From: Paraburkholderia sp. D15
GTDB taxonomy: Bacteria; Pseudomonadota; Gammaproteobacteria; Burkholderiales; Burkholderiaceae
Direction of reading: 5' to 3'
NCBI RefSeq assembly: GCF_029910215.1
Contig: NZ_CP110397.1
Coordinates: forward strand, 372,001-436,000
DNA length: 64,000 nt
Positions 1,036-10,510 of this stretch are shown here, in pieces. The translations under genes were made by a program, and so were the position numbers. Each line of letters begins with the position of its first letter. The first letter of the stretch is position 1. A model generated the notes under the pieces. That model saw nothing but the letters and a program-made list of their open reading frames with translations. It had not been told where the DNA came from and did no database searches.

Positions 1036-1623
1036 TCAGAAGGGCCTCGCCTTCACAAAGTAAATACTAGGACGCGCGCAGATGGTGAAGATTGCCAGCA
1101 CAATCGTCACTGTGAGCATTCTCCTTTCTGTCGACTTTGCGCGATCTGAGCGAAGCAGCAGCAACTCGGTTTCCGTCTGACGCATCTGCGCGATCAGCAA
1201 GCGAATCCGGTCCATGCGTTCCTGTCCGACATTGCTGAGAACCATACGCCGAGCGGCTCCGGTTTCCTCCTGATCCTGAACCACGATCGTATTCCCCAGT
1301 TCGTCCCGCTTGTCTTTCAACGCTCGATCCAGCGTATCCACCCGCGCAAGATGCACTGGGCTGTCACGGACCAATTGGCGCAATTGAAGCGATAACGAAC
1401 CCAACTGCTCAACTGCTCTGGCATACGGCGCGAGATATCGCTTGTCGCTCGTGAAAAGGTAGCCTCTTTGGCCGGTCTCGGCATCGGTCATTCGCTGAAG
1501 GATCGACCCCAGCGTCGACATCACTCGACAGGTATGCTCCATCCAATCGCGCTGAGCGAGCAGCATGCGGTGATAGCCGAAGGAGGTCGCCGAGGCGAAG
1601 AAGACCCACGCCATGAGCAGCAC
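1036..1623 (-). CDS. truncated CHASE3-domain sensor protein
   Basis: The 195-residue product begins (GTG start) with a hydrophobic segment, followed by an extracytoplasmic helical region with the CHASE3 signature RMTDAETGQRGYLFTSD and a second hydrophobic stretch near the C-terminus. CHASE3 domains normally precede a histidine kinase, adenylate/guanylate cyclase or diguanylate cyclase module. Here the frame stops within or just after the second membrane segment, so no output domain remains. The coding region abuts the transposase debris at its 3' side, which suggests truncation by that insertion. It is likely non-functional, although a membrane-anchored sensory stub cannot be excluded. Confidence 0.55.
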   Translation of the reverse strand: MLLMAWVFFASATSFGYHRMLLAQRDWMEHTCRVMSTLGSILQRMTDAETGQRGYLFTSDKRYLAPYARAVEQLGSLSLQLRQLVRDSPVHLARVDTLDRALKDKRDELGNTIVVQDQEETGAARRMVLSNVGQERMDRIRLLIAQMRQTETELLLLRSDRAKSTERRMLTVTIVLAIFTICARPSIYFVKARPF

Positions 1624-1687: not shown

Positions 1688-2134
1688 TCAGAAGCGCATG
1701 ACAAGCGCGACGCCCGCCACCATCAGCACAGTGCCGAGCACGCGCATCCAGCCCAGCGGATGCTCGGCCACACCGATTAAACCGAAATGGTCGATTGCAA
1801 CCGATGCGACTAGGTTGGCGCAAACGGTCAATCCATTGAGCGTACCGACACCTACTTTCTGCACGAGCGTCAGACCGGCAAACACCGCGACGGCCCCGAC
1901 GATTCCGCCAAGCGGAGCCCACCGTTTCATGCTGCGCAGGTCATCGAGTGTCGGCAACGGTGTGGGCTGAATCCAGAACATGGCGATGGCAAGGAACGTG
2001 ACGAGCAGAAACGACACGCTGGACGCAAGCCACGGATTGACGAGCGTGCCTTTGAGTTCGCCGTTAATCGGAGCGCCCGCTGCCTGAAGAATGCCGCCCA
2101 GGATGATGAAGGGATAAATCCACGCGCTGCTCAT
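1688..2134 (-). CDS. DMT-superfamily (DUF606/YdcZ-like) membrane transporter
   Basis: This 148-residue protein is nearly all membrane, with about five hydrophobic segments and the family pattern of a half-size DMT transporter (PFIILGGILQAAGAPINGEL at the N-terminus, then GGIVGAVAVFAGL and ATSVAIDHFG-like blocks). DUF606 proteins are usually 140-150 residues and many act as pairs or dimers. The start has a good Shine-Dalgarno (GGAGACAGGAACA-ATG). It is the last gene of the six-gene minus-strand operon, 25 bases after the ArsB-like gene. The substrate is unknown. Confidence 0.75.
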   Translation of the reverse strand: MSSAWIYPFIILGGILQAAGAPINGELKGTLVNPWLASSVSFLLVTFLAIAMFWIQPTPLPTLDDLRSMKRWAPLGGIVGAVAVFAGLTLVQKVGVGTLNGLTVCANLVASVAIDHFGLIGVAEHPLGWMRVLGTVLMVAGVALVMRF

Positions 2135-2159
2135 TGTTCCTGTCTCCGTATGTGAACCT

Positions 2160-3413
2160 TCAATGTCCGGTCAGGAGTCGGCTGCCGAGCGACAGGACGA
2201 GCGCGGGAAGCATGACGACGACGCCGACCTTCAGGAACTGCATGAAGCTCACATCCTCGCCTTCCCGTCGAGTCGACGAGAGCCAGAGGATCGTCGCGAG
2301 CGAGCCGGTGATCGAAAGATTCGGGCCGAGGTCCACGCCGATCAGCAGTGCGTCGACGACGCGCTCAGGACTGTGCGACTGCAAAGCGGTTGCGCTTGCG
2401 ATCAGTCCGGCAGGCAGGTTGTTGATCGCATTGCTTCCGAACGCGATGGCGAGACCGGATACGGCTGCTGTCATCGGCTGATTCTGTTGGCTTGCTTGCC
2501 ACAGAAACGCCGAGAGCTCTCGGATGACGCCGGTATGATCGAGCACTTCGACCAGCACGAAAAGGCCCGCGACGAGCGGCAACACGCCCCAGGATATTTC
2601 GCTGACCAACTCCACGGGTGACTGGCGCTCCTTGATCAGTACGACCAGCGCCGTGAGAATGCCGAGAATCGCAGTGGGCAGACCGAGTTGCAGATCGAAC
2701 GCCGAGACGACCAGCAGTGCGATCGCCGTCACGCCCATGCTTGCCAGCGTCAGTTTGCCGTTTGTGCTGAGTGGTTCGACCAGCAGGTCGCGCGCGCAGG
2801 TATCGCCGAGATTGGTACGCTGGGTCCAGCGCAACATCACGAAAGTGGCGACGATCGACAGCACCGAAGGCAACGCGAAGCGCGCGACCCAACGACCGAG
2901 CGCCGGCGTGTGGTTGGCATAGAGCACGAGGTTCGCAGGGTTCGATATCGGCAGGACGAAGCTCGCCGCGTTCGCAATGAACGCGCAGACGTAGAGCAAG
3001 GGAAGCGGCTTCGTTTGCGCTTTTTTGGCGGCAGCAAACACTGCGGGCGTGAGGACCACCGCAGCTGCATCGTTCGACAGAAAGGTCGTCACGACGACGC
3101 CCACGATATAGATCAGCAGAAAGAGCCTGCGAGGCGATCCCTTCGCAAAATTGACGGCATGCACCGCCACCCAGTCGAACAGGCCTTCACGACGTCCCAG
3201 TTCCGAAAGCAGCATCATGCCGATAAGGAACAGATAAACGTCCGTGCCCTTGCCGACCGCCTGCCACGCAAGATGGGCTGGAAGGAGCCCGAGCGCGACG
3301 AGCATCAGCGCGCCGGTCACGGCCCAGATCGCTTCGGGCCAGCGAAACGGCCGCAAGATGACGCCGGCAGTCGCGGCGAGCGCAATGCCCCATGAGAGAA
3401 AAATTGGATTCAT
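2160..3413 (-). CDS. ArsB/NhaD-type ion transporter (arsenite permease family)
   Basis: The 417-residue integral membrane protein has about eleven hydrophobic segments. It carries the ArsB-family blocks FLSNDAAAVVLTPAVFA in the first half and a matching SNAINNLPAGLIASATAL in the second half, which are the paired N-rich motifs of the inverted repeats. Family members exchange arsenite, Na+ or carboxylates against protons. The start codon overlaps the stop of the upstream MFS gene by four bases (ATGA), so the two are translationally coupled. No arsR, arsC or arsH lies nearby, so an arsenic role is not supported by context. Ion or organic acid transport is equally possible. Confidence 0.8.
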   Translation of the reverse strand: MNPIFLSWGIALAATAGVILRPFRWPEAIWAVTGALMLVALGLLPAHLAWQAVGKGTDVYLFLIGMMLLSELGRREGLFDWVAVHAVNFAKGSPRRLFLLIYIVGVVVTTFLSNDAAAVVLTPAVFAAAKKAQTKPLPLLYVCAFIANAASFVLPISNPANLVLYANHTPALGRWVARFALPSVLSIVATFVMLRWTQRTNLGDTCARDLLVEPLSTNGKLTLASMGVTAIALLVVSAFDLQLGLPTAILGILTALVVLIKERQSPVELVSEISWGVLPLVAGLFVLVEVLDHTGVIRELSAFLWQASQQNQPMTAAVSGLAIAFGSNAINNLPAGLIASATALQSHSPERVVDALLIGVDLGPNLSITGSLATILWLSSTRREGEDVSFMQFLKVGVVVMLPALVLSLGSRLLTGH

Positions 3414-4654
3414 GTCGCCAGAGGGGAATCGTTGTTAATGCCGTGGTTGATGCCGCAAGCTTTTTTTAGCGTGGTGCCGAAGAGCAGCCACAGCGCCAGT
3501 GATCCGGTCGTTACAGCGCCCAGCACGAGAAAAGCAGTCGCGTAACCAAAGTGCTGGGCGAGCACGCCGCCGAGCGCAGGACTCAATGCGGCGCCGATTC
3601 CCTGCACGGTCATGACCACGCCCTGCCCAACATTCACCCGTCCCGTGCCTTGCAACAGACGCACCACCAGCGCAGGCACCGCGACGCTCTGCAAGCCCGC
3701 GCCGATGCCGTCGAGCGCCTGCACCGGCCACACGCCCCACGCGGTGATGAACATCGCGGCGGTCATGCCACGCAGCGGTAGCGCGAGGAAGGTGATCAGA
3801 ATCACACCCCAGTAACCGATGCGCTGAATCAGGCGGTTCGCAAAGCAGGCCACGACGACCATCACGAGTTGCGCGACCACGATGGTCTGCGCGGTAAAGG
3901 CGCTCGGATCGCCCTGATGCGCGGCGACGGCCGCAAGGCCATAGAGCGGCAGCATCGCCGCATTGCCCAGATGGAACATCGCGAGCGATGCGGCGAGCAG
4001 CAGCAAGGGCCGGCAGGTCAGCAATATGCGAAAGCCGCTCGCATGCTCATGCTCGGGGTTCGACGCGCCCGGCGCCGATTCTTCGAGACCGCGTGCGCTG
4101 TCGTGATCGATCGCGTCTCGCCGGATCAGCAGCGTCGAGATGACCGTGAGGATGCCGAACACGCCGGCTAGCACGAACACCGCGCCGAATCCGTAGCGCC
4201 ATCCGAGCCAGCCCGACAGCGCCGCGCCGACCACATTGCCCGCGTGATTGGCCACCTGATTGCGGCCGAACTGCCGGTCGAACCCCTTCGCACGCACGAT
4301 TCCAAGCGTCACGCCGGCCACGGCGGGACCCAGCGCGGCCCCCGTCACGGCGGTGAGGATCTGCGACGCTGCCACCATCCAGTAACTATGCGATACCCAC
4401 AGCACGAGCGATGCAAGCGTCGTCACCCCCCCCGCGATGACAATAATGCCGCGCTTGTGATGCGTGGCATCGACAAGAGCGCCTGCCGGAGATGTCGCGA
4501 GCATGCCGGCGATACCGCCCAAGGTCATCACCGTGCCGATCGCCTCGGGATGCCAGCCATGTGCCTGAAGAAAGACGCCAAGGAACGGCCCGATGCCCGC
4601 CTGCACATCGGCCATGAAGAAGTTTAGTCCTTCGAGTGCGTACTGAGGGTTCAT
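3410..4654 (-). CDS. MFS transporter (12 TM)
   Basis: The 414-residue protein has twelve hydrophobic segments split by a central charged loop (residues about 185-215, rich in E, S and R). The N-terminal half has the MFS loop-2/3 pattern TSPAGALVDATHHKRG. It resembles drug/H+ antiporter-type MFS proteins. The start is preceded by GAGAGGGGTGAACC. It lies 12 bases downstream of the metallophosphoesterase gene and overlaps the ArsB-like gene, so it is part of the same operon. The substrate cannot be inferred; a phosphorylated or phosphate-containing compound would fit the neighbouring phosphoesterase, but that is speculation. Confidence 0.8.
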   Translation of the reverse strand: MNPQYALEGLNFFMADVQAGIGPFLGVFLQAHGWHPEAIGTVMTLGGIAGMLATSPAGALVDATHHKRGIIVIAGGVTTLASLVLWVSHSYWMVAASQILTAVTGAALGPAVAGVTLGIVRAKGFDRQFGRNQVANHAGNVVGAALSGWLGWRYGFGAVFVLAGVFGILTVISTLLIRRDAIDHDSARGLEESAPGASNPEHEHASGFRILLTCRPLLLLAASLAMFHLGNAAMLPLYGLAAVAAHQGDPSAFTAQTIVVAQLVMVVVACFANRLIQRIGYWGVILITFLALPLRGMTAAMFITAWGVWPVQALDGIGAGLQSVAVPALVVRLLQGTGRVNVGQGVVMTVQGIGAALSPALGGVLAQHFGYATAFLVLGAVTTGSLALWLLFGTTLKKACGINHGINNDSPLAT

Positions 4655-4666
4655 GGTTCACCCCTC

Positions 4667-5782
4667 TCACCAATGGCGTCCGTTCTTGTTAGGCCCGAGC
4701 TGCGAGCCGACGATGCCGTGCTCCGGCCACGCTTCGACCGCATGCGCATCGGTGCCGAGCGCCGCGCGATGCTTGAGGTGCCTGTCCGCGTGGCCCGCTG
4801 CCGAGAGTGCGGTGGAATCTTCGCCGCTTCGCCCGTCAGCGGTGCGGGCAGTCACCGTCAACGGCAGCCGAGAATTCGCGGTGGTAACAGGCAAAGGCGC
4901 TTGCCATATTCCGGCTTCGTCCGCGCTCCGGGCAAACGTGATCGGAATGCCGTCGAGACTGCCGGTAACCGATACAACCTCGTCATCGGACACCAGCACG
5001 CGCACACATTTCTCGTCCGACGGCCTCGGCACCGATCGACTGCGATGCAGCCGCCAGTCGGCCGGACGCGTGATCATGACGAACGGCCACGCGGCGTCGA
5101 ACGGATGAAATTTCCAGCTCACGGCCCCGCCGTCCACCGCTACCACGGAGAAGCCGGGCCGACCGTTGTCTTCTTCGATCTGTCCGGTCGAACGGGTCGC
5201 TGCGTAGACCACCCAGCCGTCGTTGAGCAACTCGTTGTAGTGCGTGTGGCCGGTGTCGACCATAGCGACGTGGGCGCGGGCAAATGCGTACGCCAGCGCG
5301 TGCCCATCGGCAATGTCGCCCGGATAGGTGTGCATGAACACGACGGGCGGCTCACGATCCCGCAAGGACGACGTGAGTTCCGATTCGAGCCACTGATGGT
5401 CCGCGTCCGACAGCCTGAAGTCCGGACCGCCGCGCCCCGCCGATACGACATCCAGAAAGAAGCATCGGTGGCCGTTGATGAGGCGCGACATCGGCAACTG
5501 AGCTTTCGCAAAGGCGTAGAACGCGTCGAGGTTGTGCGACTCGTAGTCGTGGTCACCGGGAATCGTATGGAGCGGCAGCTTCAACGCCGACACTGCATCG
5601 ACGATCCGACGAAACTGCTCGGGCGTTCCGTTGTTCGCGTTGTCGCCCGGCAGGAAAGCGAAATCGACACGATCCGACAGATGGCGATTGACCAGCCCGA
5701 TCATCGACTTCAGATGGTCAAGGCTTTCATAGCCGTCGTCGTTCGACGCATGCAGGTCGCCGAAGTGTACCCATCTCAACAT
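4667..5782 (-). CDS. calcineurin-like metallophosphoesterase
   Basis: The five metal-binding blocks of the calcineurin-like phosphoesterase fold are all present: GDLHA near the N-terminus (D-x-H), LPGDNANNG, IPGDHDYESHN (the GNH[DE] block), FMHTYPGD, and VDTGHTHYNE (the GHxH block). The enzyme should therefore be an active bimetal phosphohydrolase. A C-terminal region of about 120 residues after the catalytic fold looks beta-rich. No signal peptide is seen, so it is likely cytosolic. I placed the start at the ATG that gives MLRWVHFGDLHA, because it has a GGAG spaced about 10 bases upstream; the longer reading runs back into the previous gene. The substrate is unknown. Confidence 0.8.
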   Translation of the reverse strand: MLRWVHFGDLHASNDDGYESLDHLKSMIGLVNRHLSDRVDFAFLPGDNANNGTPEQFRRIVDAVSALKLPLHTIPGDHDYESHNLDAFYAFAKAQLPMSRLINGHRCFFLDVVSAGRGGPDFRLSDADHQWLESELTSSLRDREPPVVFMHTYPGDIADGHALAYAFARAHVAMVDTGHTHYNELLNDGWVVYAATRSTGQIEEDNGRPGFSVVAVDGGAVSWKFHPFDAAWPFVMITRPADWRLHRSRSVPRPSDEKCVRVLVSDDEVVSVTGSLDGIPITFARSADEAGIWQAPLPVTTANSRLPLTVTARTADGRSGEDSTALSAAGHADRHLKHRAALGTDAHAVEAWPEHGIVGSQLGPNKNGRHW

Positions 5783-5813
5783 GACACTTGCTCCATAGTG
5801 AGATGCAGGCTCG

Positions 5814-6365
5814 TCAGGCCGCCTGCGATGCATCGACGAGTTCGGCTATTTCGTCGACCTCAATTGTGCGACCGTGGCGGTTCCTGACGCCGTGACCCCA
5901 GGCGTGAACGTGTGCGCCGGGCGCCAGGTAGTCGGCCAGTTCGGCGGCAGCGTGAGGCGGCATGCGCAACGATGTGCCATCGTCCAGCAGCGCCCCGCGC
6001 AGTTCGCCTTTCGGGCCGAACAGCGAAAGCACCACTTCCCCGGATGCATCCATTGGCTTGCGTTCGACATCCGGCTTGTGGTGCTTTTCGCCGTTGAGAT
6101 GCGGACCTTCGTCGAGCACCACGACACCGCTCCGGGTTGTCAGCGACACGGCGGCAATCATGTCGGCATCGCGAGGCTTGACGCCGCGCACGCGAACGAT
6201 ATCGCCGGGTGCGACGTGACGCGCGAGTTGCTTCGACAGATGCGGAGGAAAGTGAACCTGACGCGTGCCGATGACGAGGCCGTCGATTTCACCGTGTGGG
6301 TTCAGTAGAAAGCATGTGACTTTGCCGCGTGTTTCCGGCAGGCTTGTTGGGTCGATCCAATGCAT
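5814..6365 (-). CDS. uncharacterised cytosolic protein with duplicated GxxxG-FPPH repeat
   Basis: I do not recognise a named family. The 183-residue protein contains two copies of a unit of about 50 residues: residues 13-63 (GKVTCFLLNPHGEIDG, VHFPPHLSKQL, PGDIVRVRG) and residues 108-160 (GEVVLSLFGPKGELRG, LRMPPHAAAEL, PGAHVHAWG). Each unit alternates short beta-like segments with a conserved PPH-hydrophobic helix, which would suit a small OB-like barrel. There is no signal peptide. The same unit occurs twice in the secreted product of the next upstream gene (6394-7134), so the pair are paralogues split between compartments. The gene lies 28 bases after that neighbour, in the same operon. Confidence 0.7.
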   Translation of the reverse strand: MHWIDPTSLPETRGKVTCFLLNPHGEIDGLVIGTRQVHFPPHLSKQLARHVAPGDIVRVRGVKPRDADMIAAVSLTTRSGVVVLDEGPHLNGEKHHKPDVERKPMDASGEVVLSLFGPKGELRGALLDDGTSLRMPPHAAAELADYLAPGAHVHAWGHGVRNRHGRTIEVDEIAELVDASQAA

Positions 6366-6393
6366 GTTCTTTGTCCTTTATGAAGGTGCCGAC

Positions 6394-7134
6394 TTAAGGC
6401 ATCGGCGTGTTTCGCTCGTAGAGCGGAGTGAGGTTGCCCGGCGAGCCGAAAGCCGTCGCCTGGAGCGCGGTGCCGTATTGATTTCGTGCGCCATAGCCTT
6501 GCGCCGATACAGTCGCGCCCTTGCGCACGAGCGTCGCAAACTGTTGAGCCACGGGCGGCGTGAGTTTGATGACCGTGCCGTCGGAGAGGATCACGCCATC
6601 GGGTTCGCCGCGCGGCGCGGTCGTGACGTGCGCCACCTGTCCTTGCGCGCTCAGAAGCGAGAGTCCTGCTCCGCCCGCGCCGCGCGGCATCGGTGGTGTG
6701 CCGGGCATCGACGGTTCGTCGATCACTTGCCGGCCAGTTTGCGTATCGGTGATGCGCTGCGCCGCGAAGCTGCCGCCTTCATCACGCCTGCCGCTCACTT
6801 GAACGAGATCGCCGCGACGAACTGCCGACGTCAGTTGCGCGCTCATATGCGGCGGAAAATGCACGAGGGTGCCGTCGTCGGTCATGAATCCATCGACGTC
6901 GCCATCCGGATTGGTGAGAAAGCGCGCGACCTTGCCTTGTGCGGTCGCGACCGGAGCCGCGTCGACAGGCGGGGGCGGAGCGACGCCCGGAGACGGAGGC
7001 ACTCCGGCGACGGGAGGCGGCGGTACCGGTGTTGCAGCGGGCTGAGGTTGAGTTTGTGCCGCACAGCCGGCGCTCGCGGTGAGCACCGCAGCGAGCACGG
7101 CGATTCGCAAGCTGGGGTATCGGGTCGATTGCAT
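6394..7134 (-). CDS. secreted or lipid-anchored protein with the same duplicated repeat
   Basis: The 246-residue product starts with a signal peptide (hydrophobic residues 10-22) ending in SAGC, a possible lipid attachment site at Cys24 although the -3 residue is not the usual Leu. A Pro/Ala-rich linker (residues 28-60) follows. Two repeat units come next: residues 66-118 (GKVARFLTNPDGDVDG, LVHFPPHMSAQL, RGDLVQVSG) and residues 163-215 (GQVAHVTTAPRGEPDG, KLTPPVAQQF, KGATVSAQG). It is the first gene of the six-gene operon and has a strong Shine-Dalgarno (AAAGGAGTGAATC-ATG). Transcription probably starts from the sigma-54 promoter at 7167-7182. The function is unknown. Confidence 0.75.
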   Translation of the reverse strand: MQSTRYPSLRIAVLAAVLTASAGCAAQTQPQPAATPVPPPPVAGVPPSPGVAPPPPVDAAPVATAQGKVARFLTNPDGDVDGFMTDDGTLVHFPPHMSAQLTSAVRRGDLVQVSGRRDEGGSFAAQRITDTQTGRQVIDEPSMPGTPPMPRGAGGAGLSLLSAQGQVAHVTTAPRGEPDGVILSDGTVIKLTPPVAQQFATLVRKGATVSAQGYGARNQYGTALQATAFGSPGNLTPLYERNTPMP

Positions 7135-7166
7135 GATTCACTCCTTTTGCGTAGCGAGGAATCATT

Positions 7167-7182
7167 TGCAAGAGCTATGCCA
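7167..7182 (-). promoter_or_regulatory. sigma-54 (-24/-12) promoter
   Basis: On the minus strand the sequence TGGCATAGCTCTTGCA matches the sigma-54 consensus TGGCAC-N5-TTGC with a single mismatch. The spacing between the invariant GG and GC is exactly 10 bases. The predicted start of transcription is near 7156, about 20 bases ahead of the ATG of the possible lipoprotein gene. The adjacent gene encodes a GAFTGA-bearing sigma-54 activator. Confidence 0.75.
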
Positions 7183-7234
7183 TTCGAGAAACGCCGGTGG
7201 CTCAACGCGTTATCAGATCAAGCCGTGTGGAAGT

Positions 7235-7271
7235 GTCAAGGAACCCGACAGCATATGTCCGGTTCCTTGAC
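7235..7271. promoter_or_regulatory. 37-bp near-perfect palindrome, probable activator binding site
   Basis: On the minus strand the arm GTCAAGGAACCGGACA is separated by 5 bases from TGTCGGGTTCCTTGAC; the arms match at 15 of 16 positions. The centre lies about 97 bases upstream of the predicted sigma-54 start, the usual distance for an enhancer-binding protein. It could also end the regulator gene's transcript as a hairpin, but no T-run follows on either strand. Confidence 0.6.
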
Positions 7272-7281
7272 GGTATCCGCT

Positions 7282-8652
7282 TTACGTCGGAGCCTCGGAC
7301 ATACCCAGTGCCGACATGCGCGTGTAAAGGGATTGGCGGCTGATGCCAAGCCGCCGCGCCGCCTCGGCACGATTGCCACCCGATGCTGACAGCGCATGAA
7401 CGATCAGCGCGCGCTCCAGTTGTGCCACCGCTTGTGGCAGGGGAAGGTCGAGCAGCGCCGGAGGAATCGCATCATCCGCGCTATCTCGGGTCGTGGTCAG
7501 AAACGCGAAGTCATCGCGCGTCAGTACCTGAGCGGGAGCGAGCGCGCTTGCCCGCTCGATCGCATTGGCCAGCTCGCGAACATTGCCCGGCCAGGTGAAG
7601 GTCGCTAGCAGGCGCTGTGCATCGGCTGAAAGATATTTGCGCGCGATCCCGGCCGGTGCACCCGCAAGGAAGTGCTCGGCGAGCGGCAGGATATCGGTCA
7701 CGCGCTCGCGCAACGGCGGCAGATGCAGCGGAATCACATTCAGGCGAAACAGCAGGTCCTGCCGGAACGTGCCCGCCTCGACCATCGCAGCGAGATCGCG
7801 ATGCGTGGCGGCCGCCACGCGCACATCGACCGTAACGATCCGGTTCGTGCCCAGCGGCGTGATTTGCCGCTCCTGGAGCACGCGCAGGAGCTTGGCTTGC
7901 ATGGGAAGCGGCATGTCGCCTACTTCATCGAGAAAGAGCGTGCCACCATGCGCTTCTTCGATGCGCCCTCGCCTGTCGCCCTGTGCGCCTGTGAATGCGC
8001 CTTTGCCGTGCCCAAAGAGTTCGCTTTCGAATAGATCGTCGGGAATGGCCGCGCAGTTCACCGCGACAAACGGACCGCTCGCGCGCGCCGACGCACGGTG
8101 TAGTACGCGCGCCGCGATTTCCTTGCCGGTTCCCGTTTCGCCGGTAATCAGCACCGTCGAATTTCCGACAGCGGCGCGGCCGAGGCGCTTCTGCACCTCA
8201 CGCATGGCCTCGCTCACCCCGAACAGTTGCGGCTCATCGGATCGAGCCTCGTCGACGAACACGCGCGTAGCGGGCATGTCGACCCGAGCCGACAGAATGC
8301 GCTTGAGCAGCGCAGCAATCTCGTCTCGTCCGACCGGCTTGGTGAGGTGCTCGAAAGCGCCGAGCCGCATCGCGCCGATGGTATTGTCACTCGTCGCGTG
8401 CGCGGTGAGCATCACGACCGGCACGGTCTGTAGCCCCGGCGTTTTGCGCAGCGTTTCCAACACGACGAGGCCATCCGCGCCTGGCAAGCGGAAGTCGAGA
8501 AAGATGCAGTCGGGTGCAGGACGCTCCCGTAACTGCTCAAACGCATCATCGCCTGAGCGGGCTTCGGACGGCGAATAGCCGAGGTCCTGCACAGTTTCCG
8601 CGAGGCCTTCGCGGAACGCGTCGTCATCGTCGATGATCAGGATGGTCGCCAT
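7282..8652 (-). CDS. NtrC-family sigma-54-dependent response regulator
   Basis: The 456-residue protein has the three-domain NtrC layout. A receiver domain (residues 1-120, acidic pocket IDDDD, phosphoacceptor Asp in IFLDFRLPG) is followed by an AAA+ domain (residues about 145-380) with Walker A GETGTGKE, the sigma-54 contact loop GAFTGA and Walker B LFLDEVGD. A Fis-type helix-turn-helix closes the protein (GGNRAEAARRLGISRQSLYT). All motifs needed for ATP hydrolysis and sigma-54 activation are intact. It overlaps the end of the kinase gene by 16 bases, which indicates a two-gene operon. The most obvious target is the promoter immediately downstream at 7167-7182. Confidence 0.92.
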   Translation of the reverse strand: MATILIIDDDDAFREGLAETVQDLGYSPSEARSGDDAFEQLRERPAPDCIFLDFRLPGADGLVVLETLRKTPGLQTVPVVMLTAHATSDNTIGAMRLGAFEHLTKPVGRDEIAALLKRILSARVDMPATRVFVDEARSDEPQLFGVSEAMREVQKRLGRAAVGNSTVLITGETGTGKEIAARVLHRASARASGPFVAVNCAAIPDDLFESELFGHGKGAFTGAQGDRRGRIEEAHGGTLFLDEVGDMPLPMQAKLLRVLQERQITPLGTNRIVTVDVRVAAATHRDLAAMVEAGTFRQDLLFRLNVIPLHLPPLRERVTDILPLAEHFLAGAPAGIARKYLSADAQRLLATFTWPGNVRELANAIERASALAPAQVLTRDDFAFLTTTRDSADDAIPPALLDLPLPQAVAQLERALIVHALSASGGNRAEAARRLGISRQSLYTRMSALGMSEAPT

Positions 8653-10121
8653 GGCAAGTCGATCACAAAGCGTGTCAAGTTCGAATCTTCCGCAAGGTAA
8701 GCACGGCCTGCGTGCGCCGACGCAATTTCACGCACGACGGCAAGACCGAGACCCGATCCGTCGGGGCGGCCCGTCACGAACGGCTCGAAGATCCGCTCGC
8801 GTTCGACGGGGCTCACGCCGGGCCCGTTATCGATGACTTCCAGTCTGAGGCGCTCACCCTCTTTAGCGGCCGTGCCATACGCGCGAACCGTCACTTTTCC
8901 GCCTGACGGCGTGTGCCTGAGCGCGTTCACGAGCAGGTTGTCGAGCGCCCGCGCCATCTGCGCGGGATCGAAAGCCGGCTGCGTCGGGCTCGGTGCGACT
9001 TCCGCGCCGAGCGTGACACGCCTGCTTTCGGCGCGCGATTCATGCGTATGAACTATCTTGTCCAGCCACGCGCGCAGATCGACCTCGCGCGCCTGGACCG
9101 TCACGGATTGCGTCAGTGCAAGCAGGCTCGTCACCTGCAACTCGATGCGTCCAACCTGCTCGATGATTGCCCTCAAGGCGGCCTCGCGGCGTGCGCCGTC
9201 ACCTGCCAGCGCATTCTCCGCCTTGAGTCGCATCGCGCCCACCGGATTGCGAATCTCATGCGCGATTTGCGCCGCCATCTTCCCCAATGTGCTGAACCGC
9301 TCGGCCTGCGCGAGTTGACGGTTCAGCGCGTCGGTATCGTGCTTGAGTCGCTCGGTCCGGTCGCCATAGCGGTTGAGCGCGTCGACGATCAGGTCGAGAT
9401 CGCGCTCGCCGAAGCGCTCGAGCCGCTTGCCCTGCTCGAATCCGCCGTCCGGAGCGAGCGCATGTTCCAGCCGTGTGAGGTTCTGACGCCATCGCTTGAG
9501 CGTCAGCGCCAGAAATAGCGCAAGCACGACGATGACGGCGAGCACGCCCGCCAGAATCGCCGTGGCGCGCTCGCCGTAGGGTCCAAGCGGCGGGCGGGCG
9601 CGCGTGAGGGTCCATGCGAGCAGGTCAGCGTGACGCGGCACCGGACAGGCGACCGCGAGCACGGCGTCCGTTCCGCTTGACACGATCTCGGCCCGCAACT
9701 GTCGGGCGCTCACTGCGCTCTTCAGCGCGCGAAGAATGAGTGGTGTCTCGGCTTCCGGAATATCGCGTTTGACGCCGCTGCCTCCGTAGGTAGGAAATGC
9801 GTAAGCAATGAAGCCATTGGGCGCCTTCGAAGGCGGGTCGCTGGTCCAGAAGCCGCCTTCGACGCCATCGGTTTGAATCAGAACGAGATCGAGCACCGCG
9901 TGCATCAGATCGATGTTGGTTTCGCCCGAGCGCTGCATCGACAGATCATAGCGCGATGCTACCGCGGTGCAAGCGGCCGCCGCCTGCTGCTTTGCGGTCA
10001 TGACGCGCTCGCTCAGCGCCGACGACAACATGAGCCATACCGCGACGCTCAACAGACCGCACAGCACGGCGATGAGCATCCAGAGCGTGAGAAGCTGAGT
10101 GGAAAACGACGGTCTCGGCAT
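8637..10121 (-). CDS. membrane sensor histidine kinase
   Basis: The protein has an N-terminal membrane helix, a periplasmic sensing region of about 150 residues, a second membrane helix (TAILAGVLAVIVVLALFLAL), a HAMP-like linker, a HisKA helix with the phospho-accepting His in AAQIAHEIRNPVGAM, and a HATPase domain with N, G1 (DNGPGV) and G2 (GSGLGLAV) boxes. It is the cognate kinase of the overlapping NtrC-type regulator. I prefer the ATG giving MPRPSFSTQLLTLWM as start because it begins directly before the first membrane helix; a GTG 60 bases upstream would also keep the frame. The sensed signal is unknown. Confidence 0.85.
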   Translation of the reverse strand: MPRPSFSTQLLTLWMLIAVLCGLLSVAVWLMLSSALSERVMTAKQQAAAACTAVASRYDLSMQRSGETNIDLMHAVLDLVLIQTDGVEGGFWTSDPPSKAPNGFIAYAFPTYGGSGVKRDIPEAETPLILRALKSAVSARQLRAEIVSSGTDAVLAVACPVPRHADLLAWTLTRARPPLGPYGERATAILAGVLAVIVVLALFLALTLKRWRQNLTRLEHALAPDGGFEQGKRLERFGERDLDLIVDALNRYGDRTERLKHDTDALNRQLAQAERFSTLGKMAAQIAHEIRNPVGAMRLKAENALAGDGARREAALRAIIEQVGRIELQVTSLLALTQSVTVQAREVDLRAWLDKIVHTHESRAESRRVTLGAEVAPSPTQPAFDPAQMARALDNLLVNALRHTPSGGKVTVRAYGTAAKEGERLRLEVIDNGPGVSPVERERIFEPFVTGRPDGSGLGLAVVREIASAHAGRAYLAEDSNLTRFVIDLPWRPS

Positions 10122-10510
10122 AACTGAACCATGTGCGAGCGCAGGTGGCGAATTGTGTAGCAAGTCCTTTGCCAAGCGCACGGGGCATCGAAGTAGAGGA
10201 GTATGTTATGGCCGCTTGCCGGGATGAAGCCGACGTCCTGACGCCGGACAATGAAGCGCACGAAAGGCTGCATATGGCTGGCTACCGTTTGATGCGTTTC
10301 CCACTTGCCAAGGTCGCATCGAATTGTAGCGACCGGCTGAGGGCGACCCTTTCCGGTACTGAACCCTGCCCCACCTCTATGGCTCATTTGATGTATTTAA
10401 CGGCCATCAATACTTCGGAGTCGACTGGCAAATCGTTACCGTGACTGACTTTCGAGGTTTCGGGAAGTACTGTCTCGAACGGACTTCTGCCGGCTGGCGG
10501 CCAACCGAAC
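10122..10510. other. non-coding or weakly coding stretch
   Basis: A possible plus-strand ORF starts with an ATG at 10208 behind GAGGAG and runs to 10444 (78 codons), but its composition does not resemble any family I know and it is antisense to the kinase leader. I treat the stretch as intergenic. The start region of the kinase operon must lie here. Confidence 0.4.

Follow-up and report, generated by a model that had tools for sequence, protein, structure and literature searches.

The described system closest in plan to the locus analysed here is ZraPSR of Escherichia coli, described in PMC7657598 as a sigma-54 two-component system with few direct targets and a link to envelope stress. The system closest in output is DzrR, which according to PMC10052836 governs an RND efflux response of Dickeya, Ralstonia and Burkholderia through a regulator composed of REC and Trans_reg_C domains. 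Our subject is a gene cluster of Paraburkholderia sp. D15 found in a window of 64 kb (the whole stretch of DNA analysed; NZ_CP110397.1, positions 372,001 to 436,000), part of a 501-kb contig in a genome of 8.3 Mb. Between positions 10121 and 1036 of the minus strand, a histidine kinase gene is followed by the overlapping gene of an NtrC-type regulator, a gap of 147 bp and seven genes with intergenic gaps of at most 64 bp. These are, in order, repA, repB and the genes for a metallophosphoesterase (mpe), an MFS transporter (mfs), an ArsB/CitMHS-like permease (arsB), a YdcZ-type transporter (ydcZ) and a CHASE3 protein. Comparison with related loci supports the view that this is a sigma-54 operon that adjoins an NtrC-type two-component system of its own and has sites for the activator ahead of the inferred start. 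We favour, with a probability of about 0.56, the reading that it encodes an inducible efflux or detoxification response to a toxicant, whose sigma-54 switch would serve mainly this one operon.

The locus shares with ZraPSR a kinase and a sigma-54-dependent NtrC-type regulator that adjoin their main target, itself including an accessory protein. The ZraPSR targets are unrelated to the paired OB-repeat proteins and the MFS, ArsB-like and DMT transporters found here, and the equivalog cut-offs of ZraR and ZraS are missed (338.7 of 760 and 124.1 of 479 bits). DzrR is alike in that a two-component regulator induces an RND pump upon exposure to envelope-active toxic agents, but it belongs to another regulator class than the sigma-54 activators. 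Identity with DzrR was thus ruled out: the Pfam scan of the regulator of the window (P0007) gave no Trans_reg_C match. The NtrC and AtoC regulators have the same domain plan, and NtrC likewise has dyad operators in pairs ahead of sigma-54 promoters; the differences reside in the operator sequence, TGTC-N9-GACA, in the target genes and in the NCBIfam scores, which stay below both cut-offs (NtrC, 423.1 of 558.6 bits; AtoC, 401.7 of 714). No description of this gene set was found in open-access full text screened with narrow terms by title and start of abstract, a search that leaves most subscription journals outside.

The sigma-54 promoter TGGCATAGCTCTTGCA matches TGGCAYR-N4-TTGCW with GG-N10-GC spacing without mismatch. 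It is the sole perfect site of the window, in which sites with up to one mismatch number 4 against 2.1 expected in shuffled sequence; the genome carries rpoN twice. This element had been proposed in a first-pass annotation of the same DNA, and its conservation in relatives bears the proposal out. The promoter was searched in fetched loci with a rep gene no more than 700 bp past the regulator gene (88 loci, corresponding to 53 distinct regions and including members from Bradyrhizobium (L016, L023, L106) and Acidiphilium (L108)). A site with at most one mismatch is found in 51 of the 53 regions and is perfect in 33, while the reversed and antisense controls gave no perfect site and one in 106 at this tolerance. 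Eighteen of these regions had been fetched with the profile R1, that is, selected for the promoter itself. The count was repeated on 34 distinct activator-to-rep regions picked by protein similarity alone, the region of the window being excluded: the promoter is present in 32 (15 perfect), compared with no perfect match and one in 68 at up to one mismatch in the controls. R1 was built from 14 aligned promoter-region sequences (the window and 13 loci). It has one strong place in its own genome (E-value 1.6e-25; 8.8e-6 for the same place on the reverse strand; 0.04 for the next one) and matches 44 of 249 genomes of the family at E ≤ 0.01. Thirty-six of the listed places were fetched, without the reverse-strand repeats and with few of the weak ones, and the majority display the order kinase-regulator-site-repA-repB or a site ahead of transporter genes. 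The weakest have no gene of the unit (L099), distant kinase and regulator matches only (L097) or the regulator only (L100).

Upstream of the promoter lies an inverted repeat (7235-7250/7256-7271) with arms of 16 nucleotides that are 94% complementary. The first-pass annotation had described it as one 37-bp dyad about 97 bp ahead of the start; the repeat is there, but the best reading is a tandem pair of 17-bp operators, TGTC-N9-GACA. In relatives the repeats vary in length and place, and the best dyad beats all 60 shuffles in 23 of 51 regions. The regions were scanned for TGTC-Nn-GACA with n from 3 to 15, up to 140 bp ahead of the promoter, against shuffles that move two-base blocks. At n = 9 there are 62 exact operators compared with 0.25 in the shuffles, and none at any other n of the range. 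Allowing up to one mismatch, at least one operator is present in 49 of the 51 regions and at least two in 45, with centres separated by 22 bp in 34 pairs, 32 bp in eight and other distances in seven; the usual position of the proximal centre is near −84.5. The protein-selected set behaves likewise (37 exact operators versus 0.14 in shuffles, none at the other spacings from 3 to 15; at least one operator in 30 and at least two in 27 of its 32 promoter-positive regions; 22 bp in 16 pairs, 32 bp in eight). In the window, the centres of the two operators fall some 85 and 107 bp ahead of the inferred start. Such a layout is the one expected of an NtrC-type enhancer. The middle of 86 distinct operators, picked at up to one mismatch to TGTC/GACA, is G/A-rich and then C/T-rich. 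The single palindrome was abandoned as the unit after the spacing scan. As a separate observation, ten family genomes of genus g11 (G062, G082, G101, G109, G117, G133, G140, G180, G204, G216) share a TGTCGCA-N3-TGCGACA sequence followed by a sigma-54-like site, which is perhaps the mark of another regulator with a similar operator.

The position of the dyad, directly after the stop codon of the regulator gene, and the covariation of its arms could be explained by an intrinsic terminator or attenuator hairpin of that gene. Among 14 aligned sequences the arms are paired at 86.5% versus 83.0% in shuffles, with 12 two-sided changes against 5.4 and a covariation of 0.202 against 0.130, a value that none of 500 shuffles reached. 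No T-run follows the dyad and the terminator scan did not return it, the distance to the promoter is near-constant and the operators obey a spacing rule, and the same elements precede mpe, mfs and arsB units that are not downstream of a regulator gene in that direction. The hairpin explanation was rejected on account of this recurrence and of the terminator scan, and we consider it highly improbable.

The recurrence of the switch ahead of other units came from a search of the 249 genomes for one operator combined with a promoter, a pattern some of whose matches belong to other systems. It matched in 56 genomes; the reversed control gave one match (G036). The switch precedes separate transporter units: mfs-arsB divergent to the kinase gene (L091), mfs (L121, and L122 with one operator), arsB (L124), mpe-mfs-arsB-ydcZ (L110) and mpe-arsB-ydcZ (L048/L079). 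In L066 and L068 the set repA-mpe-mfs-arsB-ydcZ (repA in pieces in L068) lacks the two-component system and carries its own switch, while the same genomes hold the two-component system with repA and repB elsewhere (L098, L088). That the units are dispersed and nevertheless keep one switch is good evidence that these gene sets serve one response. Operators, promoter, gene linkage and the probable co-regulation of the split units have strong comparative support. In Acidobacteriota (L017, L019, L020, L024) mfs-mpe-arsB-ydcZ is accompanied by divergent kinase and regulator genes, with a one-mismatch sigma-54 site toward the rep-like or transporter genes and a two-mismatch site toward the kinase, about 185 bp apart.

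The reading of the operon as an efflux system derives mainly from a paralogous system that faces RND genes. Searching the genome of strain D15 for two adjacent operators, each with up to two mismatches, returned the site of the window and one other (L190:2571-10235; C1:2245000-2259000). This second switch combines a perfect, correctly spaced sigma-54 site with three TGTC-N9-GACA sites, two exact and one with one mismatch. It is located between a paralogous kinase/regulator pair (35% and 53% identity, respectively) and divergent MdtAB-type RND genes, whose products score somewhat below the curated cut-offs (MdtA/MuxA-type adaptor, 367.1 of 391; MdtB/MuxB-type permease, 1378.8 of 1584). The second kinase is found at E ≤ 1e-90 in three of 150 family genomes, its own included, and each of the three carries a sigma-54 site (up to one mismatch) and one operator or more, directed away from the kinase at an adaptor-like frame (judged by eye in L195 and L196).

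Gene order is conserved across Burkholderiaceae, the outcome of a comparison that had been proposed beforehand. The gene content was counted in 51 distinct loci that have the two-component system and a rep gene followed by at least 6 kb (two of the 53 were dropped). An MFS gene is present in 44 (40 downstream, four elsewhere in the locus), the ArsB-like permease in 32 (29 downstream, three elsewhere), YdcZ in nine downstream and one elsewhere, and CHASE3 in two. The phosphoesterase is found in 12 (10 downstream, two elsewhere), a number inflated by partial copies (L022, L074, L083) and by loci found through that gene, whose search yielded 24 named loci. By these counts the putative core is made of the rep proteins and the MFS transporter, and the phosphoesterase is accessory. 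Dephosphorylation of a compound, one of the activities suggested earlier, is therefore not a core one; the system may instead help to expel a harmful compound.

The permease (P0005) prompts two other functions. Database names call it an arsenic transporter, its ArsB score in Pfam (114.1 bits) exceeds the cut-off and the solved structure that it matches best in sequence is that of an arsenical pump, all of which would suit an arsenite or antimonite resistance operon. It nevertheless falls far short of the ArsB cut-offs of NCBIfam (174.9 of 457 and 152.5 of 415 bits), the gene is absent from 19 of the 51 loci, and no arsenic regulator or reductase is present among the nine proteins scanned with Pfam, so that this assignment is very unlikely. 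The same protein scores better against CitMHS (153.7 bits). Together with the weak likeness of the phosphoesterase to cyclic nucleotide phosphodiesterases and the frequent control of uptake by sigma-54 systems, this could speak for uptake and metabolism: permease and MFS transporter would import an anionic compound such as an organic acid or a phosphate ester, the phosphoesterase would hydrolyse it and the kinase would sense that nutrient. The phosphoesterase is carried by a minority of loci even with its partial copies, no constant catabolic-enzyme partner was noticed (no systematic search for one was made), and the paralogous system faces efflux genes. We regard uptake as unlikely.

Several observations weigh against the efflux reading or the generality of its switch. 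CitMHS-family permeases can import, and the resemblance of the MFS protein to the drug exporter NorA is weak (E-value 1e-4). The RND link rests on three genomes, and the RND site of the D15 genome is missing from the matches of R1 at E ≤ 10. The symmetry of the dyad arms in Paraburkholderia and Caballeronia extends beyond TGTC/GACA and is not required by two non-mirrored operators. The RND site missed by R1 and this unexplained symmetry slightly lower our confidence. Two of the 53 regions (L115/L148 and L116/L149) have no sigma-54 site at up to one mismatch, the rep promoters of Bradyrhizobium L016 and L106 have a one-mismatch site without an operator as defined here (L016 does carry operators ahead of mpe), and the four Acidobacteriota loci have no exact operator, three of them showing a single one-mismatch match (about 100 bp ahead of the promoter in L020). 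Many regions come from related genera, and the counts are not independent events. Finally, six of the 51 loci (L088, L093, L096, L098, L108, L147) have rep genes and none of the other five nearby, although the genomes of L088 and L098 hold a transporter unit elsewhere. These loci suggest that the core may lie in the OB proteins and not in efflux. That would be so in a ZraPSR-like general response to envelope or acid stress, with the OB pair as its principal output and the transporters as passengers. The constancy of rep genes and two-component system in the loci examined (which follows from their selection) and the occurrence of soil, peat and acid-mine genera among the named hosts fit that explanation; the presence of MFS genes in most loci, under the same switch when moved, does not, and we hold this stress response to be unlikely, as with uptake.

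The coordinates of the locus are given in Table 1. The observed promoter, inverted repeat and gene set beside the two-component system are confirmed, with the regulator and kinase genes just upstream as first annotated, and the unit is recognized as a sigma-54 operon with its own two-component system from the conservation of promoter, operators and gene order. The first-pass annotation was therefore largely right about regulation and weak on dephosphorylation; the two operators, a seventh gene, the OB fold, the split regulons and the RND paralogue had escaped it. The six tightly spaced or overlapping genes it counted are in place, with Pfam assignments as guessed.

Table 1. Features of the sigma-54 locus in the window of Paraburkholderia sp. 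D15.
Feature	Position	Strand	Basis
Histidine kinase (HisKA, HATPase_c; N-terminal sensor region)	8637..10121	-	Pfam; alignment n=35
NtrC-type response regulator (receiver, AAA+ sigma-54 activation domain with GAFTGA, Fis-type helix-turn-helix)	7282..8652	-	Pfam; GAFTGA read in sequence
Distal operator CGTCAAGGAACCGGACA (1 mismatch), centre ~-106.5	7256..7272	-	Spacing scan
Proximal operator TGTCGGGTTCCTTGACA (0 mismatches), centre ~-84.5	7234..7250	-	Spacing scan
Sigma-54 promoter TGGCATAGCTCTTGCA, inferred transcription start ~7157	7167..7182	-	Consensus match, conservation
repA: export-signal-like, lipobox-like N-terminus (by eye), two OB-like repeats, weak DUF5666	6394..7134	-	
repB: tandem OB-fold protein, no signal sequence seen by eye; MHWIDP start conserved	5814..6365	-	pLDDT 89.7
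Metallophosphoesterase, weakly similar to cyclic nucleotide phosphodiesterases	4667..5833 (start may be 5782)	-	
MFS transporter, drug-efflux-like by weak matches	3410..4654	-	
ArsB/CitMHS-like permease	2160..3413	-	
YdcZ-type DMT transporter	1688..2134	-	
CHASE3-domain protein, likely seventh gene	1036..1623	-	Pfam; homologue after ydcZ in other loci

The CHASE3 gene starts 64 bp past ydcZ, and a homologue follows ydcZ in five more distinct loci (L004, L006 (partial), L007, L008, L073), with no match at this place in L002, L003, L009 and L018. On a Methylocystis plasmid (L107) a CHASE3 protein is encoded between the rep gene and the kinase gene, so this partner is not confined to the downstream end of the operon. 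The alignments of the phosphoesterase begin at residue 14-18 in 16 of the 24 related loci and at residue 1 in the closest (L002); its start is therefore ambiguous and its overlap with repB uncertain. A frame at 109-775 of the plus strand has, by eye, the appearance of a broken transposase remnant.

All three domains of the regulator (Response_reg, Sigma54_activat, HTH_8) score above their Pfam cut-offs. In the kinase the phospho-acceptor H288 lies within the invariant AHEIRNP, and the sensor region carries a conserved EGGFW...AYAFPTY...PEAE; only two kinases with this sensor are found in the genome at E ≤ 0.01. Sensing of an envelope signal by the kinase is plausible. A sigma-54-like site, TGGCAAAGGACTTGCT, occurs at 10159-10174 of the minus strand, 38-53 bp ahead of the kinase ATG, and is kept in close relatives. 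Such a site has one mismatch in 10 and two mismatches in 11 of 50 distinct kinase upstream regions. It could serve autoregulation of the kinase, but the operator scan of the window listed no operator with it, and the same bases may instead encode an N-terminal stretch of a longer kinase.

RepA is a paralogue of RepB (35% identity) and scores 22.5 bits against DUF5666, just under the Pfam gathering score of 27. A link to acid tolerance through DUF5666 was dropped, PMC13255231 offering a list entry only. The RepB model (predicted local distance difference test (pLDDT) score as in Table 1) displays an OB fold, a barrel of five strands in which a helix separates the third from the fourth, in a structural comparison (VIA-align) that covered mainly residues 101-181. 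RepB has 760 homologues at E ≤ 0.001; its profile matches 50 of the 249 family genomes at E ≤ 1e-20 and nine of 398 phylum genomes at E ≤ 1e-10. Copies of repB without an adjacent regulator or repA are also found (L117-L120, L130, L134, L135, L137-L140), in three Caballeronia plasmids after a FadR/GntR-type regulator gene; no shared neighbour of these orphans accounts for their function. An in-frame TGA in repB matches is the terminal stop codon in the five of six that were checked (L117-L121, the sixth being from G195).

In the efflux response that we favour, the kinase would sense a small molecule or a disturbance of the envelope outside the inner membrane and phosphorylate the NtrC-type regulator. 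Regulator dimers would bind the two operators on one DNA face, two or three helical turns apart, and an AAA+ ring would assemble, reach the RNA polymerase-sigma-54 complex at TGGC/TTGC through a DNA loop and so cause promoter opening. Regulator phosphorylation and activation of sigma-54 polymerase by looping are well established for this family. The operon would then yield the OB-repeat pair, one protein of exported type and one cytoplasmic, predicted to bind the inducer or its targets on both sides of the inner membrane, together with transporters of the inner membrane in a modular set, of which MFS is the most frequent member, followed by the ArsB-like permease and by YdcZ, and optionally with the phosphoesterase and the CHASE3 protein. 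Phosphorylation, transcription, export over import, the role of the OB proteins and the signal are what we infer in this scheme.

More tentatively, kinases with EGG(F/I)W-AYAFPTY sensors and activators of TGTC-N9-GACA may define an undescribed and widespread class of sigma-54 efflux systems in Burkholderiaceae, Bradyrhizobium, Acidiphilium and Methylocystis, and with other operators in Acidobacteriota. In it an OB pair flanking the inner membrane would read or carry a compound expelled by MFS, ArsB-like or YdcZ transporters or, in the paralogue, by an RND pump. From sequence, the regulatory unit can be defined by its precise operators, the rule for their spacing and the set of its targets, and the large family of hypothetical proteins homologous to RepB gains a concrete context. 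The same grammar permits the prediction of regulon members in other genomes, and one reporter fusion could reveal the inducer. If true, an efflux-linked sigma-54 response would be added to the known envelope responses.

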